Source: Paenibacillus sp. KS-LC4 (GTDB lineage: Bacteria > Bacillota > Bacilli > Paenibacillales > Paenibacillaceae). Taken from it: a DNA stretch of 64,000 nucleotides. A program made the position numbers and the translations under genes. Below, piece after piece: positions 19,902 through 38,349 of the stretch (the first letter of the stretch is position 1; every line of letters begins with the position of its first letter). The stretch is from the NCBI RefSeq assembly GCF_036894955.1, contig NZ_CP145905.1, positions 441,501 to 505,500 on the forward strand. The letters run 5' to 3'. The notes beneath the pieces are model-generated. The model was given only the letters and a program-made list of their open reading frames with translations, was not told the origin of the DNA and made no database searches.

Positions 19902-20825
19902 TTACTGAGTGTCCCATTTGTATTTTTCATTATAGATTTCGGAAACCTCCGCGCCAAGCGCTCCCCAATTATGCTGCGGGTTATTGCGAATGACATTGTA
20001 GAGCCGCAGAAAGCGGTCCTTCGGCAGCTTGCGTGCATAGCGCATAACCAGATGCGGGTATAAAATGACGTAGCGCTTCAAGCGAACGGCTGCACCGGCA
20101 ATGCCGACGAGAATAGGCTCCCCGCCCTTCATTCGCAAAATTTGCGCTTCATGAATGAGGGCGTAGCGGAACGCTTTCTCCTTCAGCAAGCCTCGATTCA
20201 GCTTGGCAAGCTCGCCCATATATTGGACAAGGTCCGGATTGAAGTGGTCGAGCAGCAGCGGCTCCAGCATCAGGTCCATATCTTTGCGCAGTACAAATGA
20301 TTGCAGCAGCAAAATTTGCTCTACCTTAATTTGGTCCGTGCGAACGAGCGTGCCGATCTCGCGCAGCATCTCATATGCTCGCTGCTTCTCGCCGTTATGA
20401 AATACCGCGATTGCGGCTTCGCGGTCGAGCCGCAGCCCGTCCACCAGCTTAAACGACTCTCTTTGCAGCAGCTTCCCTAATTGGAAGCTAATCCGCTCGG
20501 CACGCGTGCTTCGGCGCATCATCCATAACAGGGCGAGAGACGTTACGCCGCCAGCGGCGCAAAGACTTGTCTGCAAAGTTGACTCCGAAAAGAATATTCC
20601 AGCGGCAACAAGGGCAAGGATGAGAATAGTTTCCTTAACGATGCTGCTTCGTTGCAGCGACAGCGCCTTTTTCTCCAGTTTAATGAGGGAGGATTTCCCA
20701 CAGGAGGGGCAGGTTTTGTAGCCAAGTATAGTGAAGCGGCCGCAGCTGCGGCAAATTTTAAGCTTTTCATAAGCTTGTCGTGTTTTAATGTAGGGATTCA
20801 GCTGAACGGGTATTTTTTTCATCAT
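19902..20825 (-). CDS. Zinc-ribbon membrane protein of unknown function
   Basis: A 307-residue protein I cannot assign. Residues 25-45 hold a zinc ribbon with two CxxC pairs (CRSCGRF and CPSCGKS), residues 62-102 form two transmembrane helices in a hairpin, and residues 110-307 are a cytoplasmic, helix-rich region that may contain TPR-like repeats (for example EKQRAYEMLREIG and NRGLLKEKAFRYALIHEAQ). Two ATG codons are adjacent (20825, 20822); GGGGGA lies upstream. The start overlaps the stop of the small gene at 20822-20974 by four bases (ATGA), so the two are translationally coupled. Confidence 0.75.
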   Translation of the reverse strand: MMKKIPVQLNPYIKTRQAYEKLKICRSCGRFTILGYKTCPSCGKSSLIKLEKKALSLQRSSIVKETILILALVAAGIFFSESTLQTSLCAAGGVTSLALLWMMRRSTRAERISFQLGKLLQRESFKLVDGLRLDREAAIAVFHNGEKQRAYEMLREIGTLVRTDQIKVEQILLLQSFVLRKDMDLMLEPLLLDHFNPDLVQYMGELAKLNRGLLKEKAFRYALIHEAQILRMKGGEPILVGIAGAAVRLKRYVILYPHLVMRYARKLPKDRFLRLYNVIRNNPQHNWGALGAEVSEIYNEKYKWDTQ

Positions 20826-20974
20826 GAGTTCCCCCGGTCGTTGCTCTTAAAGATAGCTAAGGCAAGCTGATCAAGCTGCTCTGGCGTGGGTGCTTTCTTA
20901 TGCTGATTATAGTAGTGGACACCCCGGAGTAAGACGAAAAGAAACAATATTCCCAGACATACGTATGTAACCAT
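20822..20974 (-). CDS. Small single-pass membrane protein coupled to zinc-ribbon gene
   Basis: A 50-codon frame from ATG 20974 to TGA 20822. GAGGA lies nine bases before the ATG. The product starts with one hydrophobic helix (MVTYVCLGILFLFVLLRGV) followed by a basic patch and a soluble tail with PTPEQLDQLALAIF. Its stop codon overlaps the start of the downstream gene in the classic ATGA form. The combination of ribosome site, membrane-helix composition and stop/start overlap is strong support for a real gene despite its length. Function unknown; it may be a subunit of the downstream protein. Confidence 0.62.
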   Translation of the reverse strand: MVTYVCLGILFLFVLLRGVHYYNQHKKAPTPEQLDQLALAIFKSNDRGNS

Positions 20975-21095
20975 AAGCGCGAGTCCTCTCTTATGCTTGA
21001 AGTGATTTAAGCCATTCTATCAGGTATACTGACAGTATATCATTATTGAGACAACAAGGACCAATATGCTTAATTTGTGGAGAAGGAGCCAGAAG

Positions 21096-22874: not shown

Positions 22875-22875
22875 T

Positions 22876-23097
22876 GGTTTTAGGGTTCGTAAAACCGCTG
22901 GGGATGGTGAAGGGTGGAGCTGCGCGGCGTGAAAGGTTTGGCCTACGATCGTCATTGCCCTTGGAATTGTTGAATAAACCGCCGAGCGGTACAATTCCAA
23001 GGACAAAAACGAACGCTCCGCTTCTCCAGCTCAAACCTTTCACTTCGCTGCGCTCCCCCTTTCACCGCCATGGTTTTAAAGAACATTAAAACCGTGG
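22876..23097. repeat. Large imperfect palindromic element A
   Basis: A 222-bp non-coding palindrome starting two bases after the VWA stop codon. Nested arms: GGTTTTA/TAAAACC hairpins at both ends (22876-22896 and 23068-23097), a 35-base imperfect arm pair (22906-22940 with 23032-23066) containing the perfect 12-mers GTGAAAGGTTTG and CAAACCTTTCAC, a second perfect 12-mer pair (22959-22970 with 22991-23002), and a five-base apical stem (22978-22982 with 22986-22990). No transposase is encoded. A dispersed palindromic element (MITE or REP-like) is the best guess. Confidence 0.75.
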
Positions 23098-23139
23098 GGG
23101 TTCTAGCGGGGGAGATCACCCCGTGAACCTAACAGATGT

Positions 23140-23300
23140 AAAGACAAAAGATAAAAGCAGAAAACACAAAGCACAAAGATGAAAGCAGAAAGATGAAAGC
23201 AGAAAGCACAAGGCAGAAAGCAGAAAGATGAAAGCAGAAAACACAAAGCAGAAAGCAGAAAGCACAAAGATGAAAGCAGAAAGATGAAAGATAAAAGATG
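23140..23300 (+). repeat. 23 uninterrupted purine-rich heptamers
   Basis: Exactly 23 consecutive 7-base units fill 161 bp without any insertion or deletion. Consensus AAAGNNN; 20 of 23 units begin AAAG, the others AAAA (2) and AAGG (1). The last three bases alternate mainly between CAG, ATG, CAC and ATA. Almost all bases on the + strand are A, G or C, with T only in the sixth position. The period is not a multiple of three, so the open frame on the minus strand is a by-product. Confidence 0.9.
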
Positions 23301-23407
23301 GAGTGCAAAAATTAGGGAGTGTGAGCAATCTGGAGTCGGCTTGCTGAGATTATAGCCGAGATCGTGTCGCTCAGGACACTTACTCCTTTTTTGAAGGACT
23401 GAGATTC

Positions 23408-23523
23408 CGCTATTTTGGTTTTTAAGGCGATTTCAAGGGGCAAGCGGACTGGAAAGCCGTTATCCTACCCATTATTCCGTCAAAATAGCCATTTTCAGCG
23501 CATTAACGGCTCCTGAGTCCGCT
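23408..23523. repeat. Interleaved imperfect palindromic element B
   Basis: Two inverted pairs interlock: CGCTATTTTG (23408-23417) with CAAAATAGCC (23481-23490), 9 of 10 matched, and a 20-base pair (23443-23462 with 23504-23523), 16 of 20 matched, bounded by AGCGGACT and AGTCCGCT. The interleaved order could form a pseudoknot or alternative hairpins in RNA. Between this element and 23957 I see no gene. Confidence 0.55.
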
Positions 23524-23957
23524 GCTTATGACTAACCCATCATTTAGTTGATATAGCGTCTCCTGTGTCCGCCAAGTCTTTCTTTGTACAAGGAGCAGGT
23601 CTCAGTCATAAGGGGCATGGAGAAAAAATATTAGAGGATTTGCGAGGGGGGAGGAGCCTTGCGGTCGTCTATTGTAGATAAGCTTTTGCGGCAATATAGG
23701 GCCGGCGGGAAGAATGGTGAGAAAAGCGGACTGGGATGAAATGAAAAGATTAGCTTAGCCTTGCGAAGCGTTAGCGCTCGTTTAAAGCTTCCCTTAGGAA
23801 AGCAGCTTCGTAACCATATGCCGTTAACTCTTAAATTTCCTCCTCGGGGAATCATGAATAGAAATTCAGGGGGAAGGACGTTTGGAGATCGGAAGTGAAG
23901 TCAAACTTTGCCTACAATGCAGCTTCCTTCTCACCATCTTTCTCATTATCCTTCTAA

Positions 23958-23997
23958 ACAGCCATACAGCCATACAGCCATACAGCCATATAGCAAT
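23958..23997 (+). repeat. Octamer tandem repeat in leader of tubulin-like gene
   Basis: Four perfect copies of ACAGCCAT (23958-23989) followed by a degenerate fifth, ATAGCAAT (23990-23997). The array ends 35 bases before the ATG of the tubulin-like gene, so copy-number change would alter leader length or promoter spacing. Confidence 0.85.
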
Positions 23998-24032
23998 TAC
24001 AGCAATGATTCATACCATTTGGAGGTAGAACA

Positions 24033-27000
24033 ATGAAGCCGATTGTTAGAGAACATATCCAGCAGCTAGATGTTTCATTAGGCGGAGGTATCGTCAGTGA
24101 AAAAATTCGCGTCGATACGATTGATAATCCGATCCTCATTATTGGCCTCGGCGGCACAGGCATTGATGCGCTGTTGCGCCTTAAATACCAGATCAACCGC
24201 CGCTTTAAGCTGCCGGAAGATCCCCTGTCCAAACGCAAGCTGGAAAAGCCAAATAACGTGGAGTTTCTAGCCTTTGAGACCAATGAACAGGACCGCAACA
24301 AAAAATATAAAGGCATTGGTCTTGATCCAATCAATGAGTTTGTGCTGCTCTCCAATGCCGAAGTCGGCGGCTTGCTGCAAAATCGCAGCATTTTAGAGCC
24401 ATATATTACGGACTGGCTGTCGCCAGAGCTAAGCATTACCGATGGCATGAACGGTGCCGCCGGCGTACGTCAGGCAGGACGTTTATTGCTTTTTACAAAG
24501 ATCAACCAGGTTGTGCAAAGCATTGATAAAAAAATCAAGACGCTTTCCGTCGGCACAAGCAAAAAGCTGATGGTATTCCTGCTCACCGGTCTATCCGGCG
24601 GTACGGGCAGCGGCTGCTTCCTTGATATTTCATATATCGTGCGCGGTATAATTGAGCGCGATCATGGCTCGGCTGGCGTTGACCGCGTCAACACGCTGGG
24701 GTACCTTTTTACGCCGGATATTAATCTCGCGAACAAAAGCTTAAGCGAGCATACGAGAGAATATATTAAGAAAAATGGCTATGCCGCGCTCAAGGAGCTC
24801 GACTACTGGATGAATGTTGATGCCCGCGGCGAGCGCTTCAAGCAGCAATACGGCAGCATTCTCAGCGTCAATTCGCCGCTTCCGCCGTTTAACCTTTGCC
24901 ATCTGATTTCGGCAACGAATACCGAGGGCAAGCTGCTGGAGAACGCATATGACTACTGCATGAACGTGACAGCGGAAAATATTACGAACTTCATGGCCAG
25001 CGAGGATAAGCAATCCGGCGAGGAATTTGCTATTCATGACTATATCAGCAACATTCGCACGAATATTGCACAAATGAACAAGCAGTATCCGGCGAACTAC
25101 GATTACAACATTATTGGCGCTTCATCGGCGGTACTGCCGATTGAGGAGATGACGACCTTTTTGGCGTATCGCCTGTTTAGCAAAATGGACAAAATGTTCC
25201 ACAAGGCACCGACGCAGGACGATGTGGAGAAATTCGCCCGCAAGCTAGGCATTGATCTCGATACGATGATCAAGACGTTCGAGTCGCGCGTGCCCGAGCC
25301 GCTTCCCGGCTTTGAGAACAGCGAGCGTCTGAACTACAGCAATGTAGTGAAAATGCAGGTGGTTAACATGGATACGGAGCTGGAGCAGACGTTTCTAGCC
25401 CGTGCCCGCGAGGAATATGTGAAGGCGAAGAAGCAGCTGCCAGGGGAAATCGTCGGCCAGTTCACCGAGCAAATACGCCGTACCTTCCTGCATCCAGAGC
25501 AGGGGCCGTTTTACGTGTCACGCCTGCTGCATACCGAGAAGGGCTTCTGCCTGCTGAAAATGCTGCTATCCTATATTGAAGTGCTGCGCGAAACGCTGCT
25601 GCGCCTGCCGCGCGACATTGAGTCGGCCAGCATTCAAGCGGAGGAGCGGATGGGCGATGCGAAGAGTGCCTTCGTGTCCAAGGACAAGAAGAAAAACAGC
25701 TACATCGAAGCAAAAATCAATGAATATTGGCTGCGCGCCGATGTAGAGCGCACCGAGCAGATGATTGAGTTCTATGAGGATCTATATCAGCTGCTGAACA
25801 ACGAGAATAATCGCTTCTATAGCGTATTTACCGAAGTGCTGAACGTGCTGAACGGCATTTTTGCGAAAAATGGCGATATTTTGATCAATGGAGACGAGCA
25901 AGCCGATCACAAGGGCAACAAAACCTACTATTGGAATTTAGTTGGTGTGCCAGATATTTCTGATGTGATCGCCCGCATTATGGATAAGAAGGATGTCGAT
26001 GATCTCATTCGCGACTTCTCGCAGGGGCTGCTCGATCATTCCGACCAGTGGGTGAAGGAGAAGGATATTGATATTGTTAATTCCATCTCCAACTTCCTGA
26101 CCGATAAATTCGGCGATTTGATTACGAGATCAATGGAAGATTTCCTTATTATGAAATATGGCAATGACGAGTCCATTGAGAAATTTGTCGAGCGCTTTAT
26201 AGCGACTAAGCTGGATGAAGAGGCGGTTGCGGTATTCAATTTGAGCAACAGCTCAGGCAACCTGCATTTCCCTTCATGGGGCTTCGTATCGGTGCCGCAG
26301 CATGCGCCAAGCATACTCAAGGGCATTCGCAATTACCAGAGCAATGCTGTAGGCAAATCGCATTTTACCATTAAAGAGAGTGAAGTGAAAAACCGGATTT
26401 TCTGGCTGAATACGAAAAACGGCGTGCCGCTGTTCGTCTATACGCCGCTCAAGGTATATGAGGAAAGCTATGAACGGACGATTCTCGATAAGGAAGGCGT
26501 CGGCCGCCATCTCGTCATGACGGAGAAGGTTAACTGGACGAATCTGCCTTCGCCAATTCCTGAGAAATCATGGGGCGATACGTACAGCAACGCGAGGGTG
26601 AAGGGCTATAATGCCCGCGTTCGCGCCGAATTCCAGCGTGCGCTGGGGTATCGGATTATTAGCGAGAAGGGCGTCGACAACAGCATGAGCAGCCGTTATG
26701 CGGTGCAGTTCACCCAGCCCTTCCAGCTGCAAACGCTTCTTAGCTCCTACAATATGGAGGCCGCTGCCGCTAAGCCGAATCTTGGCGAAGTAAAGCGTGC
26801 CGTCATTGAGCTTCGCCGCTTGCTGGCTGAAGGCTTGGCACCGGATGGAGTGAAGGATATTTTCGGCAGCCTGAATGAAGATTTGGCGCAGGAAAACCTT
26901 ATTCGTTCGCCAGAGCTGCTGGCGCGTGTGCGCGAGGAACTGGCGAAATACGACGCGATTAGCGATAAGGTTGCCGAGCTTGAGAAGCTGCTGAGCCTGC

Positions 27001-27422
27001 ATCAGGATGAGGAAAAGTGGCTGGATCAATTTATTGAGGCGCTTTATACGGAAACGATTGTGAAGAAAGGCGCGCTGTACGTCTATGACCGCGACCCAGA
27101 GGAAGAGGCGTGGGCGCCATTCGCTAATCTGATGAAGAGCAGCAGCTTCGTGGAGCATGAGGTGTTCGAGAGCTTCCGAGGGCTGGATGAGAAAAGCCGT
27201 GCCGCTCTTCTGCGCAAAGCATCGCGCCGGGTGACGGATTTGACGGCGACGGAGGATACGAAGCTGCTCGTTCATAAGCTGGATGAGCTGTTTAATGCCT
27301 TCCTCGACGCTCGCGACCGTCTGGAATACGAGCGAATTGAACTGGCGAACGGAGAAGATTTGTACCAATTCTACAAGCAAATGACGAGCAAACTAAACGA
27401 CATACGCAGAAAGTTGAAGTAG
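24033..27422 (+). CDS. Bacterial tubulin-like GTPase (Tubulin_2 family)
   Basis: A 1129-residue cytoplasmic protein. The N-terminal 400 residues carry the tubulin/FtsZ nucleotide fold: first-strand loop IGLGGTGIDA (37-46) and the tubulin signature LSGGTGSG (187-194), which corresponds to FtsZ GGGTGTG. This matches the large tubulin-like family known from bacterial conflict and envelope-associated operons rather than FtsZ (about 380 residues), to which it adds a 700-residue helical C-terminal region. TTTGGAGG precedes ATG 24033. It is the first gene of a six-gene operon with VWA, TRAFAC-type GTPase and GAP1-like genes. Whether it polymerises is unknown. The fold call is firm; the role is inference. 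Confidence 0.82.
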   Translation: MKPIVREHIQQLDVSLGGGIVSEKIRVDTIDNPILIIGLGGTGIDALLRLKYQINRRFKLPEDPLSKRKLEKPNNVEFLAFETNEQDRNKKYKGIGLDPINEFVLLSNAEVGGLLQNRSILEPYITDWLSPELSITDGMNGAAGVRQAGRLLLFTKINQVVQSIDKKIKTLSVGTSKKLMVFLLTGLSGGTGSGCFLDISYIVRGIIERDHGSAGVDRVNTLGYLFTPDINLANKSLSEHTREYIKKNGYAALKELDYWMNVDARGERFKQQYGSILSVNSPLPPFNLCHLISATNTEGKLLENAYDYCMNVTAENITNFMASEDKQSGEEFAIHDYISNIRTNIAQMNKQYPANYDYNIIGASSAVLPIEEMTTFLAYRLFSKMDKMFHKAPTQDDVEKFARKLGIDLDTMIKTFESRVPEPLPGFENSERLNYSNVVKMQVVNMDTELEQTFLARAREEYVKAKKQLPGEIVGQFTEQIRRTFLHPEQGPFYVSRLLHTEKGFCLLKMLLSYIEVLRETLLRLPRDIESASIQAEERMGDAKSAFVSKDKKKNSYIEAKINEYWLRADVERTEQMIEFYEDLYQLLNNENNRFYSVFTEVLNVLNGIFAKNGDILINGDEQADHKGNKTYYWNLVGVPDISDVIARIMDKKDVDDLIRDFSQGLLDHSDQWVKEKDIDIVNSISNFLTDKFGDLITRSMEDFLIMKYGNDESIEKFVERFIATKLDEEAVAVFNLSNSSGNLHFPSWGFVSVPQHAPSILKGIRNYQSNAVGKSHFTIKESEVKNRIFWLNTKNGVPLFVYTPLKVYEESYERTILDKEGVGRHLVMTEKVNWTNLPSPIPEKSWGDTYSNARVKGYNARVRAEFQRALGYRIISEKGVDNSMSSRYAVQFTQPFQLQTLLSSYNMEAAAAKPNLGEVKRAVIELRRLLAEGLAPDGVKDIFGSLNEDLAQENLIRSPELLARVREELAKYDAISDKVAELEKLLSLHQDEEKWLDQFIEALYTETIVKKGALYVYDRDPEEEAWAPFANLMKSSSFVEHEVFESFRGLDEKSRAALLRKASRRVTDLTATEDTKLLVHKLDELFNAFLDARDRLEYERIELANGEDLYQFYKQMTSKLNDIRRKLK

Positions 27423-27426
27423 GCCT

Positions 27427-29814
27427 ATGAGAGAGCTTCTGGAGCGGTATGCAGCTGATTATGCGGCTGCCGAGCAAATGCTCAGCGGTCATGGAGACGA
27501 TCAGAGCATCATTCATTATCCGACTGTATTTTTGTATATTGGCGACGAGGCGGGCCAAGCGATTGAGCCGATGATACAGATGAATGCGGCGAAATGGGAA
27601 AATAGCGCCGGCGTCATTTATTTTCACGCCGCGTCCGCTAGCGGGAAAGGACGGCAGGCGGCAAGCGCCGCCCATACCGCCAAGGTGACAGAGGTTGTGC
27701 TCAGCGGCTTGTCGCCGCTCGGCAGCGACCATAAGGCGGGGCGCAAGGAGCTATGGGAAGCCTTCCGCGGCAATGCCGGCTACTTGGCTGACCTAAACCG
27801 CGCGCTCCGCGGTGTCAGTGATACGATTGCCGATTATGGGAGGCTGTATGCCTCCTTTGATCGGCTGCATTTGGCGGTTATTACGCGTGCCGATGACCCG
27901 ATGAATGCGCTGGTGCCGGATATTTCCTTGCTGGCACAGGCGATTTTTCAGCAATCGTTCAAATCCGTGCAGATGGATCTTTATACGCTAATCAGCGAGC
28001 GTGAGCAAATGGATACCTTCGCTCACGCCAGCGCGATTGGCGTGAGCTTTCTGCGCGAGCTGGAAGGGATGCAGCGGCCGGATTATACGTTCTCGGCGCT
28101 GCTTGAGGTGACGGGCGACGGGCTGGCGATTCCGGTCGTTCATCCTCCGTCACCGCTGTTCGATCTCGTCTATGTGCTGTCGGACCGCAACGAGAAGGGC
28201 ATGACCGCCGTCAACGGCATTCGAGACAATTACGATATTATTTGCCACATTCAGCTGCTCAAAAACCGCAAGCGCAAGGATGCTCAGGCAGATGAAGCCT
28301 ACGGCGGCTACAATAACTCGACGTTCAAGAACAGCCTGCGTACGGAATCAGGCAGGCAAGGCTTCGTCTCGGCGGGGCTGTCCAAGGTGAAGCGCCCGAA
28401 TTATTCGATTGCGCTGACGGTGCTGTATCATCTTCATATGCAGCTATCCGAGCTGTTGGCGAAGGAGCCTGAGCTCAGCATGCGGGAGAAGCTTGCCTGC
28501 TTCGGCATCGACCCGGCCTCGGTCGATGCGATGCTGCTACAGCTGCTGCCGAGCGATGAGCAGCTTGCCGACATGACGGGACTTCTAACCTCCGGCGTTC
28601 GTTATGAGCAGTTGAAGCCGTTATCGCTGCGGGACGCTGAGGAGGCGCTGTTTGGGGACGGAGCCTCCGTCTTTTTCCATAATCATTTCGCCCGCACGGC
28701 GCAGCAGCGGCTGTCCGAATTTGGCGCGGCAGCGGAAATGCGCCGTGCTGTTGCCAAGTTCGAGCGGGAGCATACTGACATTAGCTTCTACCAGCTATGT
28801 GCTTGGACGGAGCCAAGCGGCGACGATGGCAGTGTGCTTGCAGGTGTGCGCAGCCGTATTAAGGAGCTGGCGATTGCCGTGGAGCAGGCGCGCGAGGAGC
28901 TGGGGCGCACGCAGTCGGGACGCGCGGAGGATGTCCGCATTCAGCGGCTGCCTTTTATGGATAAGCAAAATTTGCGTTCGTTTATCCGTGCCTTTTTTCA
29001 GCTGGTGTATGGTCAGAAGTGGGAGCTGCTGCGGCTTGAGCTGGAGCTGTCGCTGTATCGCCGCTTGGCGGATGAGCTGGAGCAGCTTCATGAGCTGTAC
29101 CGGCTGCGCGTCAAGCAGATGGCGGATATGGCAGACGTCATGAAGCAGACGGCGCTGCAAAGCATCAAGACCGCTGACGATTACATCGGGCAAAATATTT
29201 TTGAATATTATGCTCGGGTAACTTGTGATATCGTGCTGGAGGTTCAGGATAAACGGGGTGCAGGCATCTGGTTTGATGAGCGTTATCTCGGCTCTGCGGC
29301 GGAGCTGCTGGAGCAGGGCAATGAGGCTTACGTGAATAAGCTCGCGCAGCTAGGCTTGAGGCATGTGCTGACGGCGGAGCCATTCGCCCAGACGTTTGAG
29401 GAGGAGCTGCTTCGCAGAGCGAATGTGACGATTGACTACACGAACCGCCAAGCGCTGGCGAAAGAGGATTTGTTCAAGCGCCTTTACCGGACGCTGGAGG
29501 AGAACGCATCGATTAACGTTCGGCTGCTGGACTACACGCATGAGCATCGCTACGAGGAAAAATATATGTTCGGCGATGCGGAAAGCGAATTTGTGCAGTA
29601 CGCGCTTGGCGTCGACGAAACGTCGCGAATCTACAAGCTCGGCTGCATTCACGAGAAGCGCAGCAGCGGTGTGGAGAAGCTGAATCTGATGGGTGGCTTC
29701 CACCTGGAAGACCTGTTGTATTATCGCAATGGCAAGGTGTATTACGAGACATATAGAGAGAACGGCTATGCGTTCCACGGCGTGGACCCGGCAGGCTTGC
29801 CGGAGCTGCGCTAG
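27427..29814 (+). CDS. Large partner of the tubulin-like protein, unknown family
   Basis: A 795-residue soluble protein starting four bases after the tubulin-like gene stop, so translation is probably coupled. No motif is certain. Its N-terminus (PTVFLYIGDEAGQAIEPM, about 32-49, then a hydrophobic strand GVIYFHA) has the strand-glycine loop-helix rhythm of the tubulin-like first strand but without the Gly-rich nucleotide loop, and its length and helix-rich C-terminal half also resemble the gene before it. It may therefore be a degenerate, non-hydrolysing tubulin paralogue; this is inference. The C-terminal third (about 510-720) is strongly helical. There is no signal peptide or membrane helix. 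Confidence 0.7.
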   Translation: MRELLERYAADYAAAEQMLSGHGDDQSIIHYPTVFLYIGDEAGQAIEPMIQMNAAKWENSAGVIYFHAASASGKGRQAASAAHTAKVTEVVLSGLSPLGSDHKAGRKELWEAFRGNAGYLADLNRALRGVSDTIADYGRLYASFDRLHLAVITRADDPMNALVPDISLLAQAIFQQSFKSVQMDLYTLISEREQMDTFAHASAIGVSFLRELEGMQRPDYTFSALLEVTGDGLAIPVVHPPSPLFDLVYVLSDRNEKGMTAVNGIRDNYDIICHIQLLKNRKRKDAQADEAYGGYNNSTFKNSLRTESGRQGFVSAGLSKVKRPNYSIALTVLYHLHMQLSELLAKEPELSMREKLACFGIDPASVDAMLLQLLPSDEQLADMTGLLTSGVRYEQLKPLSLRDAEEALFGDGASVFFHNHFARTAQQRLSEFGAAAEMRRAVAKFEREHTDISFYQLCAWTEPSGDDGSVLAGVRSRIKELAIAVEQAREELGRTQSGRAEDVRIQRLPFMDKQNLRSFIRAFFQLVYGQKWELLRLELELSLYRRLADELEQLHELYRLRVKQMADMADVMKQTALQSIKTADDYIGQNIFEYYARVTCDIVLEVQDKRGAGIWFDERYLGSAAELLEQGNEAYVNKLAQLGLRHVLTAEPFAQTFEEELLRRANVTIDYTNRQALAKEDLFKRLYRTLEENASINVRLLDYTHEHRYEEKYMFGDAESEFVQYALGVDETSRIYKLGCIHEKRSSGVEKLNLMGGFHLEDLLYYRNGKVYYETYRENGYAFHGVDPAGLPELR

Positions 29815-29861
29815 AGGCACAGCGAAAAAGCCGAATGCACGTAAGAGAGGATGCTATACAC

Positions 29862-31148
29862 ATGCAGCGAAAAATAAACCTGCTACTATTGTTGTTTAGC
29901 TTAATAGGGGGATTCATCGGCTACGCCATCGGAGAACTGATGCTGACGCAGTGGACGGGCGATATGCCGCGTTCGGTTCTTATGGGCTTATATTTTGGCG
30001 TACTCGCATTATTTATCGGGCTAGGCTGCTTTGTTGCAGAGCTGGTCAATCCGCATTTGAACGGCTCATCCTGGCGCCAGCGGTACACGGGGCTTTCATG
30101 GAAGCTGTTCGTACCGGCGACCTTTGCGCTGCTATTTGTAGCGGGCTTGGGCCTGCAATTTTTTTACGGCTTGAATATTGGCGGATTAAAGCAGGTGAAA
30201 GACATCGTCCTCGTCATCGACAATTCCGGCAGCATGGCGGAGACGGACCCGGACAATCAGCGTTATGTGGCGGCGAAGCAACTGATTGACCAGATGGACA
30301 ATGACAAGCGCGTTGCGATTGTAGGCTTCAGCGATTTGGCGCAGCAGGTGCTGCCGTTTACGAGCGTCGACTCGGCTGCCAATAAGGCGGCAATTAGTAC
30401 GGCGATTGACTCGCTTGTGCCGACGGATGGCGGTACGGATTTCAGCCGCGCGCTGGAGGAAGCGCTGAATACGATTGAAGCGAAGGCGGATACAAAACGC
30501 GGTACGATGGTGATTTTGCTGTCCGATGGCTTCAGCGAATCCGATGTGGCTCCGCAGCTGGCGCTCTATAAGGAGCAGCAGATTGCTATTAATTCGGTCG
30601 GCCTCAGCCTCGTAGATTCGAGAGGGGCGGATTTGCTGCGCAACATCGCTGAGTCAACAGGCGGTGCTTATTACGATGTGCAGAAGGCAACGGAGGTATC
30701 TACGGCCTTCCAGACGATCTACGAGACGATTGATGATCGTACGCTCGTAACCGAGCGCACAGGACCGATGGCCGATGCAACGTTTTACAAAATCGTTCGC
30801 GTTATCTCCATGCTGCTGATCGGTGGTGTGCTGGGCGTGGCGATCGGATTGTTTTTCGACAATCGCTATTTGGCGCGCAGCTTTGGCATCGGCGGCGCAG
30901 TTGGCGGCTTGCTGTCTGGCCTCCTGCTGGAAGCGTGGCTGTCTGGCCATTCTCTCAGTGATTCGTTCACTCGCTTTGTGGCGATTGCGCTGCTTGCGCT
31001 TATGATCTCTTTATTCACCTTAATCGTGCCGATTAGGGAGAATAGCCGTCCGGTAAGCGACAGACGCCGCGGGGCTCCAGTCCCAAGGGAGCGCGGAACA
31101 TCTGGCGGCGACGGAAGAGCGAAGGATAGCCGCAACCATGGATTTTAA
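29862..31148 (+). CDS. Multi-spanning membrane protein with VWA domain
   Basis: A 428-residue protein. Three N-terminal membrane helices (about 6-27, 40-60, 80-102) precede a VWA domain (about 112-290) with a complete metal site: Asp120-x-Ser122-x-Ser124 (DNSGS), a Thr in TDGGTDFSRAL and an Asp in LLSDGFSES. Three more helices follow (about 306-325, 335-353, 365-388) and a basic cytoplasmic tail rich in Arg. With the N-terminus inside, three helices place the VWA domain outside, as for the VWA protein at 21096. The in-frame ATG 29835 has no ribosome site; AGAGAGG supports ATG 29862. Third gene of the tubulin operon. Confidence 0.83.
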   Translation: MQRKINLLLLLFSLIGGFIGYAIGELMLTQWTGDMPRSVLMGLYFGVLALFIGLGCFVAELVNPHLNGSSWRQRYTGLSWKLFVPATFALLFVAGLGLQFFYGLNIGGLKQVKDIVLVIDNSGSMAETDPDNQRYVAAKQLIDQMDNDKRVAIVGFSDLAQQVLPFTSVDSAANKAAISTAIDSLVPTDGGTDFSRALEEALNTIEAKADTKRGTMVILLSDGFSESDVAPQLALYKEQQIAINSVGLSLVDSRGADLLRNIAESTGGAYYDVQKATEVSTAFQTIYETIDDRTLVTERTGPMADATFYKIVRVISMLLIGGVLGVAIGLFFDNRYLARSFGIGGAVGGLLSGLLLEAWLSGHSLSDSFTRFVAIALLALMISLFTLIVPIRENSRPVSDRRRGAPVPRERGTSGGDGRAKDSRNHGF

Positions 31149-31173
31149 AAGTCAGCTAGGGGGCGATTGACAG

Positions 31174-31815
31174 ATGCGATTTGTGGAAGCAGAGGGCGAT
31201 TCGCCGCGAATCAAAGGCTTGACTCATACGCTGAATGGCGACCGCTGCACGCTGCAATGGCTGTGGCCGAGCGGCGTCGAGGCGGTTTATATCGGCAAGG
31301 CGGAGGCTGAGCAGGCGGCATTCAGAGGAACGCCGGACCTTGCATCATTAAAGCTCTATACGAGGGCTGAATACAAGTCAAACAACGGCTATCATATACG
31401 GCTGGAGGGCATCGGGCGCTACCGCTTTACCGTCTACATTTATGAAGAGGGAGCGGAGGATGGCAAAGTCATCTGGCTGCAGAGCGATGGCCAAAGCGAG
31501 CTGGATGTGAGCGCCGGCAGAGCGAAGATCCGCTATTCCGTCAAGCAGAAGACCGGATTTCTTCAGCGGTATAAGACGGTTTCGATTCAGGTGACGGCGG
31601 AGGTGCCGATTGCCAAGGATGTATTATGTTATGTGAAAAAAACGGGCGGCTATCCGGCAAACAAGGATGATGGCATGATGTATCCATTTGCCGCTGCTTT
31701 CGCCTCCGGGCGGAATGTGCTGCCGCCAATCGAGGTCGGCAAGCAGGACTTCATCCGTGTATTTTTCACCGATGGCCCGCGTTTCGCACAGCTGTACGAA
31801 CTGGTGCCGGAATGA
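31174..31815 (+). CDS. Beta-rich protein of the tubulin/GTPase operon
   Basis: A 213-residue soluble protein without signal peptide or membrane helix. Its alternating hydrophobic pattern suggests two small beta-sandwich (Ig- or FnIII-like) domains, split around residue 115: TLQWLWPSGVEAVYIGK and YRFTVYIYEEG in the first, KTVSIQVTAEVP and DFIRVFFTDGPRF in the second. No catalytic motif is visible. It sits 25 bases after the membrane VWA gene and 22 bases before the GTPase gene, so it belongs to the operon and is probably an adaptor. I do not recognise a named family. Confidence 0.7.
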   Translation: MRFVEAEGDSPRIKGLTHTLNGDRCTLQWLWPSGVEAVYIGKAEAEQAAFRGTPDLASLKLYTRAEYKSNNGYHIRLEGIGRYRFTVYIYEEGAEDGKVIWLQSDGQSELDVSAGRAKIRYSVKQKTGFLQRYKTVSIQVTAEVPIAKDVLCYVKKTGGYPANKDDGMMYPFAAAFASGRNVLPPIEVGKQDFIRVFFTDGPRFAQLYELVPE

Positions 31816-31837
31816 CAGCAGGAAGGGGAGATAAGAC

Positions 31838-33097
31838 ATGGGCTTTTTTGATTTTTTGAAAAGAAAACCGCAAGCAGAGCAGCTGCAAGGCTCTTACGAT
31901 ATTGTATGCCCATTTTGCTTCGGCAAATTTTCGCCAGAGGATGTCGTATTTCGTGCCACGCACAGCCGCGAGGACGATGAGGATTACGCTTTGGGCGAGG
32001 ATGAGCAGCTGAATCGGTACAGAGAGCGCTTCGGCCTTGATTCCGTGTATGACATAGAGGCGATTATTCATCCCGAGGATGTGCCGGAGGAGAAGCATCT
32101 CTACGCAGGCGAAGTACTAATCGGCTTGAACGACCGCTACGGAGAGCTGACGCGCAGAAGGCTGTGTCCAAAATGCCATAACGAGCTGCCGGTAACATCG
32201 GGCAAGGTGCCAAGCAATATTATTTCGATTATCGGCGCTTCTCAGGTTGGCAAATCGGTGTATATGACAGCGCTCATCCATACGCTGCAAAATACAACCG
32301 CCGATCATTTCAACGCGGCTTGCATGCCGCTTACGGCGGAGATCAGCCGCAAGTTCCGCACGAACTATGAGGAGCCGCTGTTTGGGCGCGGCGATCTGCT
32401 GGCTTCCACACAGAAGGAAAAAATGCAGGAGCCGTTCATTTTTCAATTCGTCTTCCGCGATGAGTCCAAGCCGCCGCTGACGCTTGTATTTTTCGATGTG
32501 GCGGGCGAGGGCATGGTCGAGGAGGATTATTTGGGGCTGCATGGGCAGCACATTAAAAACTCCTCCGGCATTTTGTTCATGGTCGATCCGCTGCAAATCC
32601 GCTCCATCCGCGAGAAGCTGCGCATTAACCACGGCGACAAGCCGGGCGAGTGGGCGCCGCAATATGACGAGCCAAGGGATGTCGTGCTGACGATGTTCAA
32701 GGATTTTATCGCCTATCAGGACAACAGCAAGACGGATATCCCAACCGCGGTCGTCTTGACGAAGAGCGATATGCTGCATGCGCTTAAGGATGAGGAAGGC
32801 GAATATATTAAGTCGAACAGCAATATTTTTCACAATATGGTTCATCGCAATTATTTCAACTTAACAGAGTTCGAGAACATAGATGGCGAAATGCGACGCT
32901 TTATCGAGAAGGTTGATCGCCCATTTAAAGGGACGATGGACGTTTATTTTAAGGATACGGCCTATTATGCGGTATCGGCGCTCGGCAGCAATCCAGTCAA
33001 TCAGAAGATGGAAACGGTCGTCAGTCCGATTCGAGTGGACGAGCCCTTTATATGGCTGCTGTATAAGCTGGGTTATATAGAGGGGAGAAGAGAATAG
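31838..33097 (+). CDS. TRAFAC-type GTPase with zinc ribbons (double-GTPase-like)
   Basis: A 419-residue cytoplasmic protein. Two CxxC pairs (Cys24/Cys27 in CPFC, Cys110/Cys113 in CPKC) form a split zinc ribbon. The P-loop domain follows: Walker A GASQVGKS (133-140), Walker B VFFDVAGEG with Asp220, the guanine-specifying TKSD (308-311) and SALGSN near the end. A Gln before the Val-Gly-Lys-Ser and DVAGE in place of DTAGQ are typical of the atypical GTPases found with GAP1 proteins. GGAAGGGGAG precedes ATG 31838. Its TAG shares one base with the GTG start of the next gene, so GTPase and GAP1-like protein are made together. Confidence 0.83.
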   Translation: MGFFDFLKRKPQAEQLQGSYDIVCPFCFGKFSPEDVVFRATHSREDDEDYALGEDEQLNRYRERFGLDSVYDIEAIIHPEDVPEEKHLYAGEVLIGLNDRYGELTRRRLCPKCHNELPVTSGKVPSNIISIIGASQVGKSVYMTALIHTLQNTTADHFNAACMPLTAEISRKFRTNYEEPLFGRGDLLASTQKEKMQEPFIFQFVFRDESKPPLTLVFFDVAGEGMVEEDYLGLHGQHIKNSSGILFMVDPLQIRSIREKLRINHGDKPGEWAPQYDEPRDVVLTMFKDFIAYQDNSKTDIPTAVVLTKSDMLHALKDEEGEYIKSNSNIFHNMVHRNYFNLTEFENIDGEMRRFIEKVDRPFKGTMDVYFKDTAYYAVSALGSNPVNQKMETVVSPIRVDEPFIWLLYKLGYIEGRRE

Positions 33098-36000
33098 TGA
33101 AGCATTCTACCTCTATGATTGGCCAGCAGCTGTATACGCGGGAGCGGCGGGGCATTTTTCGTTCGACGGAAGGTTATGACACGGTGGCTAAGTCCGACGG
33201 GCTGGATCAGCAGTTTGTGAAAAAGCAGCTGCATCCGCTTTGCGTCTATGACGCTCCGGCCGAGCTGGCAGCAAGCGGCGAGAAGGATGGCGCCGCTTAT
33301 CCAGAAACGGCATATGTGCTGCGCTTGGAGGGCGGCGAGGCGGTTGTTGGCCGCAGCGTCTATCAAGCTGTGGACTTTACGGGGCTGCGCAGCGCCTTCT
33401 TCACACACAATTATGTAATTCCAGCCGCGATTGCAGATGCAGACCCAGATAGCTATAAAGCCTACCTCGGCGCTGCCTTCGTGGACAGCTATGACATAGA
33501 GCAGGGCATGGAGCTGCCTGATTTGGCGGCGCTCCCGCAAGTGGCGGGCAGCGCTTGGACGGCCCGAGAGGCCGGGGCCGCAAGCGCTGCGGCAGGCGGC
33601 GCTGGTGCTGGTGCTGGGCAAGCAGGCTCTGGCGGAAGCGGTCAGCGGGCGGCGCTCGCTGCGCTGAACATAAGCGAGCAGCGCTTTAAGCAGCTTCTAT
33701 TTGCCGTTATGGCCTCCGTTGGCGGACGCAAGAAGGTGTATGTGGCACTTGATGTGCCTATCGGACAGCTGCCTGAGCAAGCGAAGGCGCTGCTGGCGGT
33801 GCTGTATGCGAGCTTGCCTTATGCCTTCCGCAAGCAGCTTGGCTTCATGACGTTTGCCAAAGAACCGCAAAGCCGCAAAGGGATTCATCTCACCTTCGTC
33901 GAGAAGGGCAGCCTGCGGGCAGGTGATCGCAATGTAGATAAGGACTACATCTTCGATTTTGCGAATGACCGTTTCCTCAATGTGGATTTGGATAAGGGAG
34001 AGCATCCTTATTTGGATTTTGCCTGGGATGCACTGGACGAGCCGGATCGCGCCGAGCGATTTTATCAGTTCGCCGAGGAAATGCTCAGCGGCATGGGGCA
34101 GGAGCGGTTAATGGGGCTGGGCTCCTACCACGAGCTAAGCGTCCTCTTCCAGGTTGAGGAAGGCAGCGATGAGCTGTATGAGCTGCATAAAAGCGCGGTG
34201 CTGCGCGGGATGCTGGAGTATTTGCGGCCAGCAGGAGCGCTTGTGCAGCGCATTCGAATGAATGACTTATTTTTGTCCCGCTTCGATTATGAGTTTGATG
34301 CTGTTCGTGGCGGTCGCGTGCCGGAGCCATTCATCGCGGAAAGCTTCAAGGATTATTATCTCATTGATAGTAAATATAATGGCAGCAAAATCGTCGATTA
34401 TTTCATTCGCTCCTTGCTCGCTGCCCAGCAGCAGGGTCAAGCGGCAGCGATGGCGGCCTACTACGGAGCGTTAGAGACTGAGCCTCTCCTATTGAAGGAG
34501 TTTGTCAGCAAAATGCTGGCAAGCGGGGCGCTGCTGGAACGGCTGCTGCTCCCGTTTCTGGATGGCAAGCTGCGGGATGCAAGATCAGCGAAGGATATCA
34601 TTATTTTTATGGGCAAATGGGGCAAGGACTTCCCAGCCATACTCGATAATGATGTCGTGCACAAGCTCGTCAGGCAGCAGCTCAAGGATAAGCTGATGGA
34701 TGAGGCGCAGCCTGTGCAGGTATTCCAGCAGGTGCATGAGCAACTGGACAAGCTGAGTGCCACTGCTTTCGACAGCGACGAGGGCCGCGTGAAGACGAAC
34801 CATTTGACGGCGGGTATTGGCGTCCGTCTGTTCGAGCTGGAGCTTGTCGCTTATCGTACGCTGCTGACGGAGCTGGATTTGGATCGGCTGTCGCAGCGGG
34901 AGCTGCATAAAGGCAGCTTTCTGGAGAAGGCGGATCGGCTGGAGCAGTGGAACGCTCAGTTGACTGATCCTAGGCAAAGGTCGACGGCGCTTATTATTAA
35001 AGCGGCTTACGATTGGTTTTTCAAACCGCAGCCGAAGCCGAGCTTGTTCGCCAAGCTGTCCCCCGTCGAAATCGATCGCGCCCAGCAGCTTGGACGGCGC
35101 TGGATGCTGACGGTCGATTCGGAAATGAAAGCGGAGCGGTTCGAGCAGCTTGTGCTCGCCTTTTATCGCAGCTCAGACATGGAGACGATTGATTATGCAG
35201 GGCTGCTGGATACGCTGCGCAAGAGCGCAGGGGAAAAAGAGCTCATTTATCAATTTTTTGCATGGTCGGAGCGCCATGAGGATTTTATGCGGCCGCGAGG
35301 CTTCGTGCCTGCGTATGCAACCGCCATTACGAATTATTTCAGGCAGCATGACCGCGATGCCTTCAAGAGCCGCGCGAATCGGAATGAGTATTTTTCCAAG
35401 GCAGGCCCAAGGCTGCAGGCTGTTTACAATCAGGTAAGAGGGGATCTGTCTTCGCCTCTGGCGAAAATGTTTCGGCAAAATCGCAAGCCGTTTCTCTTCT
35501 CCATAGTTATAGCCTTTGCCATACTAACAGCAGGCATAGGCGGCTTGCTTGCGCTTGGCGGCGGTGACGAGCCTGCGGAAGGAGACAATCTTCCTGGCGC
35601 GACGAATAGCCCTGGCCTGACTGCTCCAGACGCAGCAATTCCCGATACACTCGTATATGCGGCGAAGCAGGAGGGTGTTGACGGCAAACAAACAACAACA
35701 CTCGTATTCCGGTTCACGGATGCTGCCCTATGCAGCGCCTTCTCCCCGGATACGATAGCTGTTGTCGCAGCAGATAGAGAAACTAAGGAATATAGCGGTC
35801 TAACGTTCATTCCTAGCTGTACGGCTGCCCCTGCGGAATCCCCTGCCGGGACAGGGACGGATGAAAGCGGAGCTTCTGCCAGCCCGGGCGATATTGCATC
35901 GCCTACTCCTACAGCAACTAGCGATGCAGCGGCACTTAATACAGGCAATGTAGAAAATGCTGCCGTTGGTACAGCAGATGGCGTGTCGGCAAGTCCCGGC

Positions 36001-36339
36001 ATCGTCTCCCCATCGCCGGATGCAAGTGCAGGAGCAGGCGACGATGCAGCCTCCAGCGGCGGAAGCAGTGCAAGCCCAAATGGAACAGACACCAGCGAGC
36101 CGGGTTCTGCTGGCAGCATAGCGCAGCCTAACCCGAGCGATTATCCGAACCGCGTCGTTGTCGATTTAGGCGAGGATGTGGAGCTGCTTCCAGCGAGCAA
36201 ATTGAAGGTGGGCAGCGTTGATTATACGCTGTCCGAGCCTTTTGCTGATGCAGGCCTATCTGCTACAGATGATGCCACTAGCACTAGCACTAGCAACAGC
36301 AATAGCGAAGAGACACCATCAGCCAATCCAACAAATTAA
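33097..36339 (+). CDS. GAP1-N2-type GTPase-associated protein with transmembrane anchor
   Basis: A 1080-residue protein. Residues 1-150 match the GAP1-N2 pattern (QQLYTRERRGIFRSTEGYDT, then SDGLDQQFVKK and AVDFTGLRSAFFTHNYVIP), followed by a Gly/Ala linker (about 150-185) and a long helical GAP1-M/GAP1-C-like region (about 190-790). One membrane helix lies near 798-820 (FLFSIVIAFAILTAGIGGLLAL), after which about 260 residues are outside: two beta stretches embedded in a Ser/Thr/Ala/Pro-rich tail with repeated SASP and TSTS tracts. Start is GTG 33097. The family is named for its constant pairing with TRAFAC GTPases. It would connect the cytoplasmic GTPase to the cell surface. Confidence 0.8.
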   Translation: MKHSTSMIGQQLYTRERRGIFRSTEGYDTVAKSDGLDQQFVKKQLHPLCVYDAPAELAASGEKDGAAYPETAYVLRLEGGEAVVGRSVYQAVDFTGLRSAFFTHNYVIPAAIADADPDSYKAYLGAAFVDSYDIEQGMELPDLAALPQVAGSAWTAREAGAASAAAGGAGAGAGQAGSGGSGQRAALAALNISEQRFKQLLFAVMASVGGRKKVYVALDVPIGQLPEQAKALLAVLYASLPYAFRKQLGFMTFAKEPQSRKGIHLTFVEKGSLRAGDRNVDKDYIFDFANDRFLNVDLDKGEHPYLDFAWDALDEPDRAERFYQFAEEMLSGMGQERLMGLGSYHELSVLFQVEEGSDELYELHKSAVLRGMLEYLRPAGALVQRIRMNDLFLSRFDYEFDAVRGGRVPEPFIAESFKDYYLIDSKYNGSKIVDYFIRSLLAAQQQGQAAAMAAYYGALETEPLLLKEFVSKMLASGALLERLLLPFLDGKLRDARSAKDIIIFMGKWGKDFPAILDNDVVHKLVRQQLKDKLMDEAQPVQVFQQVHEQLDKLSATAFDSDEGRVKTNHLTAGIGVRLFELELVAYRTLLTELDLDRLSQRELHKGSFLEKADRLEQWNAQLTDPRQRSTALIIKAAYDWFFKPQPKPSLFAKLSPVEIDRAQQLGRRWMLTVDSEMKAERFEQLVLAFYRSSDMETIDYAGLLDTLRKSAGEKELIYQFFAWSERHEDFMRPRGFVPAYATAITNYFRQHDRDAFKSRANRNEYFSKAGPRLQAVYNQVRGDLSSPLAKMFRQNRKPFLFSIVIAFAILTAGIGGLLALGGGDEPAEGDNLPGATNSPGLTAPDAAIPDTLVYAAKQEGVDGKQTTTLVFRFTDAALCSAFSPDTIAVVAADRETKEYSGLTFIPSCTAAPAESPAGTGTDESGASASPGDIASPTPTATSDAAALNTGNVENAAVGTADGVSASPGIVSPSPDASAGAGDDAASSGGSSASPNGTDTSEPGSAGSIAQPNPSDYPNRVVVDLGEDVELLPASKLKVGSVDYTLSEPFADAGLSATDDATSTSTSNSNSEETPSANPTN

Positions 36340-36390: not shown

Positions 36391-36591
36391 TGCAGCTGGA
36401 AGCAATATTTTTTGCTAAAGTTCATCCCAGAGCATGCCCAAGCGGCGCATTCTGAATTATAATAAAAGACAGGATAATTTTACATATAAGCAAGGGGATA
36501 TAAATTATAAATTATAAATGAGAGAGATTAGAGGCGGCTGCTATGGAACGTGCAATTAGTCAATCAGCCTGCCTTGAGAGGGGAAAAACAA

Positions 36592-38349
36592 TTGAAGATC
36601 AAGCTTAAGCATGTCATGGCTGCTCTGACGGCGCTTGCTTTGCTGTGTCTATATCGGGGGACCTTTTCGCAGGCTGAATTTTATTTCCAAGATCGCGTGA
36701 TGCAGCGGGAAAGCCCGGTCGATACACAAATCGTCATTGTCGCTGTCGATGATCAAAGCTTGGAGGATTTCGGCAGCTGGCCGTGGAGCCGCAGCGTCCA
36801 TGCGCAGCTGGTGGATACGCTGAGCGAGGGCAAGCCGGAGGTAATTGCCTTTGATGTCACCTTTGCGACGAGCTCGGATGAGGAGGCGGACAGCGAGTTT
36901 GTCGATGCGGTTGCGAGAGCAGGCAATGTCGTGCTGCCTGCCTACGGAACCTTCGCCGCGTCGGCGCGTTTAGGCGCGATTGAAGCGGAGGAGCTTTCCG
37001 AGCCGTTCGAGGGCCTTAAGGAAGCGGCCGCAGCGACTGGCCACATCAACACGATTACCGATTCAGATCGGGTCGTGCGCAAGGCGCTCTATTCTTTTAA
37101 TAAAGAGGGCATACAGATCAATAGCTTTGCATGGGAAATTTACAAGCTGTACATGCAGCGTTTAGGCAAGCAGGCGGAAGCGTCCAAGCCGCCGCTCGAT
37201 GGCTTTCAGCGTTTCCCAATTGCCTATACGAGCGGTCCCAATCAGTATGAGGCGATCTCTTATTCGGCCGTGCTGAGCGGTGACGTTCCGGCGGACTATT
37301 TTGCCAATAAAATTGTCTTGATCGGTCCTTATGCGGTCGGCTTTAACGATGATTATTTGACGCCAATGAACGATAAGCAAGCGATGAACGGCGTAGAGAT
37401 TCATGCGAATATTGTCCAGCAGCTTATGGAGCAGGATTTTAAGCGGGAGCTGGATTGGAAATGGAATGCGCTCGTGCTGCTCGCGGCTGTCGTGCTGGCC
37501 TATTATTTGTTCCGCAAGCTAAATATGCTGCTTTCCTTTCTGTCGGTTGCGGTGCTTATCGCCGTATTTATCGTAGGCGGACGTTATTTATATGGGCAGG
37601 GTATTTTGCTGTCGCTTGGATATGTGGTGCCGCTGCTGACAGCCAGCTGTCTAGCGGTCGTCATTTTCAACTATGTAAGCGAGCTGGCGGAGCGGCGACG
37701 GGTGACGGATATTTTTGGCCGCTATGTGGCGCCGCAGGTCGTCAGCCAGATTTTGAAAAATGGCGAGGACGGCTTGAAGCTGGGTGGGAGCAGGCGCGTT
37801 CTGACGGTGCTGTTCGTCGATATTCGCGGGTTTACGCCGCTGTCGGAGAAGGCTGAGCCGGAAGAGATTGTTGAAATTTTGAATCAGTATTTGGATTTGA
37901 CCGCCAGCTGCATCTTTGAGCAGGAGGGGACGCTCGACAAGTTTATTGGCGATGCGACGATGGCGATCTTCAATGCCCCGCTGCTGATGGAGGATCATCC
38001 GATGAAAGCAGTACGCGCCGCATGGGCGATGAAGCAGGGTTCAGTGGAGCTGGAGAAGAAGCTCATCGAGCGCTTCGGCTTTGGAGTGAAATTCGGCATT
38101 GGCATCCATACGGGGCCTGCGGTTTTCGGCAACATCGGCTCCAAAACGCGGATGGACTACACGGCAATTGGCGATACGGTCAATACAGCCGCCCGGCTGG
38201 AAAGCCATACAAAGCCGGGACAAATTGTGCTTAGCGAGTCTACATATGAGGCAGTCAAGGATCGAATTTTGGCGGAATCTCTTGGAGAAATAAAGGTCAA
38301 GGGCAAGGAGCAGGGCATTCATATTTATGAATTGGAGGGGTTAAAATGA
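36592..38349 (+). CDS. CHASE2-domain class III adenylate cyclase
   Basis: A 585-residue membrane receptor-cyclase. An N-terminal membrane helix leads to an extracellular CHASE2 sensor (about 35-290; note VDDQSLEDFGSWPWSR and VLIGPYAVGFNDDYLTP), then three membrane helices (about 297-365) and a class III cyclase domain (about 395-585). Catalytic residues are complete: metal-binding Asp in LFVDIRGFT and in FIGDATMAIF, Lys just before it, adenine-specifying Asp in MDYTAIGDTVN, and Asn/Arg in NTAARLE. TTG 36592 is the likely start, with GAGAGGGG eight bases upstream; the open frame begins earlier at 36550. TATAAT at 36458-36463 may be its promoter -10. Its stop overlaps the FecR gene start (ATGA). 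Confidence 0.9.
   Translation: MKIKLKHVMAALTALALLCLYRGTFSQAEFYFQDRVMQRESPVDTQIVIVAVDDQSLEDFGSWPWSRSVHAQLVDTLSEGKPEVIAFDVTFATSSDEEADSEFVDAVARAGNVVLPAYGTFAASARLGAIEAEELSEPFEGLKEAAAATGHINTITDSDRVVRKALYSFNKEGIQINSFAWEIYKLYMQRLGKQAEASKPPLDGFQRFPIAYTSGPNQYEAISYSAVLSGDVPADYFANKIVLIGPYAVGFNDDYLTPMNDKQAMNGVEIHANIVQQLMEQDFKRELDWKWNALVLLAAVVLAYYLFRKLNMLLSFLSVAVLIAVFIVGGRYLYGQGILLSLGYVVPLLTASCLAVVIFNYVSELAERRRVTDIFGRYVAPQVVSQILKNGEDGLKLGGSRRVLTVLFVDIRGFTPLSEKAEPEEIVEILNQYLDLTASCIFEQEGTLDKFIGDATMAIFNAPLLMEDHPMKAVRAAWAMKQGSVELEKKLIERFGFGVKFGIGIHTGPAVFGNIGSKTRMDYTAIGDTVNTAARLESHTKPGQIVLSESTYEAVKDRILAESLGEIKVKGKEQGIHIYELEGLK

Follow-up and report, generated by a model that had tools for sequence, protein, structure and literature searches.

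A conserved nine-gene unit of Paenibacillus with a tubulin-like GTPase and surface VWA proteins as a possible envelope-tethered cytoskeletal device

The 64,000-nucleotide stretch of Paenibacillus sp. KS-LC4 DNA analyzed here (the window; contig NZ_CP145905.1, positions 441,501 to 505,500) contains a conserved unit of nine genes on the chromosome (window positions 19902-36339). The products are a tubulin-like GTPase (P1), a protein that by sequence and structure model looks like a second, GTP-site-dead tubulin fold (P2), two proteins with VWA domains predicted to lie outside the cell (P7 and P3), a DO-type GTPase (P5), a GAP1 membrane protein (P6), an FN3-like protein (P4) and two further membrane proteins, P9 and S. 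The evolution of the unit is slow, mostly vertical and cargo-free, unlike that of defense systems. We assign a probability of about 0.5 to the reading that the unit is a vertically inherited, envelope-tethered cytoskeletal device having local membrane or wall remodeling or envelope-stress homeostasis as its output, rather than killing.

A preliminary description of this DNA had reported a six-gene operon. All six open reading frames (ORFs) are present, head to tail on the plus strand at 24033-36339, and are separated by 4, 20, 25, 22 and -1 bases. These junctions are those given earlier except for the one preceding P3, where the 47 bases previously reported correspond to a start at the next ATG. 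The window genes were mapped onto 80 loci of other Paenibacillus species, each taken with 10-kb flanks. As 79 complete loci of other species contain all six genes in this order, the association of the genes is far beyond chance. The six genes are therefore linked as had been proposed, but the limits were drawn too narrowly and the unit extends to P9, S and P7. The order P9 (divergent)-P7-P1-P2-P3-P4-P5-P6 was constant in 79-80 of the 80 loci, the sole shortfall being a locus cut by a contig end (L109), and genes flanking the nine-gene block were common only to the closest relative or within clades. The extra ORFs inside the block in these loci were low-complexity, antisense or masked stretches and included no plausible or conserved cargo gene; as reported earlier, no toxin, nuclease or caspase-like effector was found. 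P1 of the window shares 99% identity with its Paenibacillus algorifonticola counterpart. All nine genes and their order were also kept in each of six divergent loci (two are from the same genus, three come from f22, another Bacilli family, and one is from f11), in which P1 identity is 60-70%.

Table 1 Features of the nine-gene unit and of the insertion within it (window positions).
Feature	Position	Strand	Description
P9	19902..20825	-	307 residues; N-terminal Zn ribbon, transmembrane segment(s) ~61-105, conserved, helical C-terminal half; divergent obligate partner
S	20822..20974	-	50-residue protein with a single transmembrane segment; not in ORF list; ATGA overlap with P9 start
P7	21066..22874	+	Signal peptide, extracellular VWA with DxSxSM, Ig-like region, one transmembrane segment, cytosolic C-terminal domain
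Insertion P7-P1	22875..23320	.	Dispersed palindromic repeat and 7-bp satellite-like array; probably outside the system
P1	24033..27422	+	Tubulin_2 (FtsZl1) GTPase, 1129 residues
P2	27427..29814	+	795 residues; predicted tubulin fold without GTP-binding glycine loops; long C-terminal coiled coil
P3	29835..31148	+	Multi-spanning membrane protein; VWA predicted outside; DxSxS intact
P4	31174..31815	+	213 residues; cytosolic tandem FN3-like protein
P5	31838..33097	+	DO-type TRAFAC GTPase with N-terminal Zn ribbon
P6	33097..36339	+	GAP1-N2/GAP1-M; one transmembrane segment ~800-818; fast-evolving polar tail

Full-length Tubulin_2 proteins and P9 were found in the same 26 of 52 genomes of the genus, and GAP1-N2 was found in those 26 plus one weak match in an incomplete genome. 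Among 300 Bacilli genomes, full-length Tubulin_2 was present in 43 and P9 in the same 43, with none discordant. At the family level 130 of 250 genomes gave matches over the Tubulin_2 cut-off and 11 of 19 genera gave a match of any kind, and in a related genus the unit is carried by 51 of 61 genomes. The preliminary description had made its idea of a system depend on a tubulin profile match and a conserved neighborhood; both were found, the profile being PF13809. A search of plasmids and phages with P1 gave one weak plasmid match (cyanobacterial) and no phage match, that is, no close homologue, and P5 gave 30%-identity matches on two Rhodococcus megaplasmids.

P1 identity follows that of the species marker GyrB (r=0.94 over 24 genomes), the means being 92.3 for P1 and 90.6 for GyrB. 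Relative to the nearest relative the ratios of nonsynonymous to synonymous substitution (dN/dS) were 0.019 for P1, 0.020 for P5, 0.047 for P7 and 0.10-0.135 for the others, with the flanking genes at 0.04 to 0.18. Evolution of this housekeeping-like kind makes a role in defense less likely.

P1 matches Pfam Tubulin_2 (PF13809) over residues 35-385 with 252.5 bits (cut-off 27; E 9.4e-75). The GGTGSG signature lies at 189-194, GL[SA]GGTGSG is kept in 80/80 orthologs and the mean column identity of the ortholog alignment is 86%. In the window neither P2 nor P4 matches a Pfam family over the cut-off. P2 scores 12.2 bits against Tubulin_2, under the curated cut-off; its orthologs match the C-terminal half of that family in 36 of 50 cases (best E 7e-6), a few of them over the cut-off. 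The AlphaFold2 model of P2, which has a mean predicted local distance difference test score (pLDDT) of 75.6, contains an alpha/beta domain at the N terminus and a helix of 72 residues, and Foldseek against the PDB gave TubZ as its top match (probability 1.00, E 0.014), tubulins ranking below. TubZ functions as a GTPase in plasmid or phage segregation, whereas P2 is chromosomal and lacks the GTP loop. When P2 and P1 were aligned by eye, RIHLxVITRVDDPLN was found in place of KLMVFLLTGLSGGTGSG and IGDEAGQ in place of IGLGGTG. The glycine loop GGxG[S/T]G is missing from 79/80 P2 orthologs, and P2 is therefore termed a tubulin-fold protein rather than a tubulin GTPase; DDPxN is present in 75/80. 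A profile-profile comparison of the P1 alignment with the P2 alignment gave no significant match, and thus the tubulin assignment of P2 is drawn from its Pfam matches and its fold. Profile searches of solved structures by sequence with P1, P2 and P4 returned nothing useful. Note that frames of 440-460 residues in other Bacilli (e.g. G371:C20:51369-51665, G364:C245 and G459:C8) weakly match the middle of Tubulin_2 and are possibly another tubulin-like family; these were not counted as members of the system.

The topology of all unit proteins was taken from hydropathy, which gave no transmembrane (TM) segments for P1, P2, P4 and P5. P7, a unit member in 80/80 loci, has a signal peptide, a VWA domain outside the cell (Pfam E 5e-16), a TM segment at 465-483 and a cytosolic tail. 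Its metal-ion-dependent adhesion site (MIDAS) is intact in 80/80 loci, and by block conservation the VWA domain and the tail are ~74-83% conserved. P3 has 5-6 TM peaks with the VWA domain (Pfam E 7e-21) between TM3 and TM4, and its MIDAS motif, DxSxS, is likewise intact in 80/80. Hydropathy thus supports the trans-envelope layout suggested in the preliminary description, in which the VWA domains lie outside and the GTPases inside, and the assignments given there as tubulin, DO-GTPase, GAP1 and VWA are borne out by Pfam matches and by the motifs GGTGSG, GASQVGKS, TKSD and DxSxS. P9, found in 80/80 loci with two CxxC pairs in every one, consists of a Zn ribbon followed by TM segment(s) and then a helical region, and matches no Pfam family over the cut-off. 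Alignment of the P9-P7 intergenic stretch gave a conserved island that is a 50-codon ORF on the P9 strand (S), which is present in 81/81 loci including the window, usually with a 4-base ATGA overlap, as well as in 6/6 divergent loci. In L069 S is fused in frame to P9. S is taken to be coding because its substitutions at codon positions 1/2/3 (277/184/793) show a coding signature; the protein has one TM segment and no Pfam family over the cut-off. A 580-residue TM protein (L048 4583-6325, minus strand) often lies directly downstream of P9 (19/80 loci) and is possibly a clade-specific extra part. It was rejected as a part of the unit, not being universal, and has no Pfam family over the cut-off.

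P5 is narrowly over the Pfam DO-GTPase2/1 cut-off of 27 (30.6 bits for PF19993 and 27.3 bits for PF19975). It carries GASQVGKS and TKSD, and the P-loop, FFDxAGE and both CxxC pairs are kept in 79/79 orthologs, the two N-terminal pairs being enough for one Zn ribbon. Similarity to DUF463 (YcjX) is weak (E 0.098) and below the cut-off. P6 matches GAP1-N2 (4e-44) and GAP1-M (2e-29), whereas residues 300-797 gave no Pfam match in a search that included no separate GAP1-C model. About 800 cytosolic residues of P6 are followed by one TM segment (~800-818) and a polar tail having a median of 238 residues, 75% of them polar or small, and a conservation of 13-39% versus 70-78% in GAP1-N. GAP1 stands for GTPase-associated protein and the name does not imply an established activating function. 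The AlphaFold2 model of P4 (pLDDT 92.7) has two beta-sandwiches, for which the nearest Foldseek match is NCAM FN3 domains 1-2 (probability 1.00, E 9e-5); P4 is thus assigned, by modeled fold alone, as a tandem FN3 protein. The 795- and 213-residue proteins left unannotated in the preliminary description are, judged from these models and alignments, the second, GTP-loop-less tubulin fold and the tandem FN3 protein.

The surroundings are ordinary transport and metabolic genes and do not look like a defense island. Upstream lie genes for an oligopeptide transporter and a sigma factor, as well as for an MCP-like protein and an aromatic acid exporter; downstream are a CHASE2-cyclase gene, genes for a FecR protein and a squalene-synthase-like protein and, judged from their translations, sugar-degradation genes. 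The CHASE2-adenylate cyclase gene (36550-38349) overlaps that of the FecR-domain protein (38346-39986) to form a separate two-gene unit. These two were rejected as operon members, not being conserved with the unit beyond the closest relative, and a PycC match of the cyclase was set aside as a generic cyclase domain in a gene outside the unit. PADLOC gave no defense-gene match (PADLOC-DB) for P1-P7 or P9, and its mad3 and mad8 matches upstream were rejected, both being ABC transporter ATPases by Pfam. The P7-to-P1 gap, short in other loci, is ~1.16 kb in the window and holds a long palindromic non-coding repeat (22875-23099; DNA fold z -9.8) that resembles REP/MITE elements and has ~22 dispersed matches in its own genome. 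Upstream of P1, 7-base units (AAAGCAG/AAAGATG) and an 8-base unit (ACAGCCAT) form satellite-like arrays at 23140-23311 and 23958-23997. An Rfam search of 18.5-37 kb gave no matches, and a promoter and terminator scan gave no excess over shuffled sequence.

In the proposed envelope device P7 and P3 would bind wall or surface ligands outside the cell by their VWA domains, whose metal sites are intact, and the TM parts of these proteins, the P6 TM helix and the S-P9 zinc-ribbon pair would tether a cytoplasmic complex to the membrane. P5, partnered by the GAP1 protein P6, would be the switch that controls assembly of P1 together with GTP-loop-less P2, with P4 as adaptor, and the output would most likely be local membrane or wall remodeling or envelope-stress homeostasis. 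A more specific and rather speculative version, which we think somewhat improbable, is that active P1 and GTP-dead P2 co-assemble at the membrane under the P5-GAP1 switch and are read out from the surface VWA domains via the S-P9 anchor. This would amount to a heteromeric tubulin cortex in a prokaryote, controlled by signals and with no relation to cell division or plasmid segregation. The envelope device is supported by the constant nine-gene order without interchangeable cargo, the all-or-none occurrence of the tubulin and P9 (26/26 and 43/43), the agreement of P1 with GyrB, the low dN/dS, the conserved P7 VWA domain and tail, the high frequency in the related genus and the presence of membrane parts in P3, P6, P7, P9 and S. 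Further support comes from the membrane remodeling predicted for FtsZl1 (PMC2875224), the DO-GTPase of psp operons (PMC11237479) and the phenotype of sll0445 (PMC9880817). Several observations weigh against it. The unit is missing from half of the genus and is therefore dispensable, and its presence and absence on the gyrB tree require ~8 gains or losses (17 for shuffled labels). Two genomes, G016 (locus L176) and G021 (L175), have a full-length version of the unit that is ~70% identical and at odds with their GyrB position; this copy was probably transferred, and since it does not follow the species the unit can be transferred. The TubZ match of P2 is weak by its E-value of 0.014, a literature search found no experimental work or phenotype for the Bacilli version, and the Synechocystis sll0445 operon differs in its FtsA-like and DivIC-like partners and its phylum, with no GAP1 reported (PMC9880817).

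The preliminary description had offered defense, surface attachment and envelope remodeling as functions, and of these defense is weakened by the mode of evolution. In the defense view the unit would be an anti-phage conflict system in which GTPase thresholding and tubulin assembly contain or kill infected cells. This exact class has been labeled a conflict system and GAP1-N2 neighborhoods have been tied to a multicellular habit (PMC7159879), and both the patchy presence in the genus and the divergent transferred copy would fit. However, 80 loci contain no effector or cargo gene, purifying selection is strong, the sensor domains are not hypervariable, P1 identity follows the species marker, the neighbors are ordinary genes, no PADLOC model matches and P1 has no close homologue in plasmids or phages. 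An envelope role is favored over conflict owing to the absence of cargo, the slow change and the species-like history, and we consider an anti-phage function unlikely, although a conserved abortive mechanism may be compatible with evolution of this kind.

Less likely still is a device for surface attachment, gliding or swarming, in which an inner tubulin track would move or position VWA adhesins. The two outward VWA domains with MIDAS, the fast-evolving extracellular tail of P6 and the impaired phototaxis of the Synechocystis Tubulin_2 mutant (PMC9880817) are in its favor, but the conserved unit has no pilus or secreted adhesin gene, half of the genus does without the unit and the Synechocystis operon has the different partners noted above. 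We judge least probable a sensory relay with transcriptional or enzymatic output, in which the tubulins would be non-polymerizing GTP-dependent scaffolds. The lack of GTP loops in P2 would suit such a relay, as would the statement of Makarova and Koonin that T6-H7 elements were not found in FtsZl1, which may not form filaments (PMC2875224). Yet the conserved unit has no kinase, regulator or enzyme, and the adjoining CHASE2-cyclase and FecR genes are not conserved with it.

The operon class itself is already known. FtsZl1 operons with linked vWA and GTPase genes were defined by Makarova and Koonin in 2010, who proposed membrane remodeling (PMC2875224). These operons share with the present unit a protein that, like P1, has an N-terminal FtsZ-like domain and a long helical C-terminal part, together with a linked vWA protein having an intact MIDAS and a diverged P-loop GTPase, whereas the OmpA and protein kinase genes given there are not in our unit. 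GAP1, FN3, P9 and S are not mentioned in the text of that paper; further linked families, themselves without names (A1-A2 and B1-B9), belong to its figure and supplement. A Firmicutes GAP1-N2/tubulin/two-vWA set that corresponds to the unit in almost every gene was described by Kaur et al. in 2020, who predicted it to be a conflict system and found GAP1-N2 neighborhoods to be strongly associated with a multicellular habit (PMC7159879). Their theme has in common with the unit a Zn-ribbon DO-GTPase, a GAP1-N2 protein with a TM segment and polar C-terminal extension, an FNIII component, two tubulin genes with coiled coil (here P1, by its tubulin profile match, and P2, by ortholog profile, fold and the 72-residue helix) and two vWA genes, one multi-TM with the vWA outside (here P7 and P3). 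In that theme the GTPase bears two N-terminal Zn ribbons (the two CxxC pairs of P5 suffice for one) and one vWA protein carries a YtkA domain; P7 gave no match to Pfam YtkA even at E 1. The slow cargo-free evolution of the unit fits poorly with the conflict label (PMC7159879).

The presence of DO-GTPase in psp (pspF) operons connects this family with membrane stress (PMC11237479), although relative to the YcjX (DUF463)/DO-GTPases of the phage-shock envelope response the P5 similarity is below the cut-off and the unit has no PspA or PspC. In Synechocystis (sll0445-0447), a Tubulin_2 protein has an experimental phenotype: interruption of sll0445 impaired phototaxis, and its product co-fractionates with proteins of the pilus (PMC9880817). 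FtsZl1/GAP1 operons are widespread and belong to those large prokaryotic GTPase systems for which no job is known, and the two published predictions for them, membrane remodeling and conflict, disagree. The parts list now stands at nine genes, with two added obligate membrane components as candidate anchors. What is new relative to the published systems is P9 and S as parts, the GTP-loop-less putative partner of the tubulin (neither these proteins nor the loss of the GTP loop is named in the text of Kaur et al., PMC7159879) and the defense-unlike evolution of the whole.

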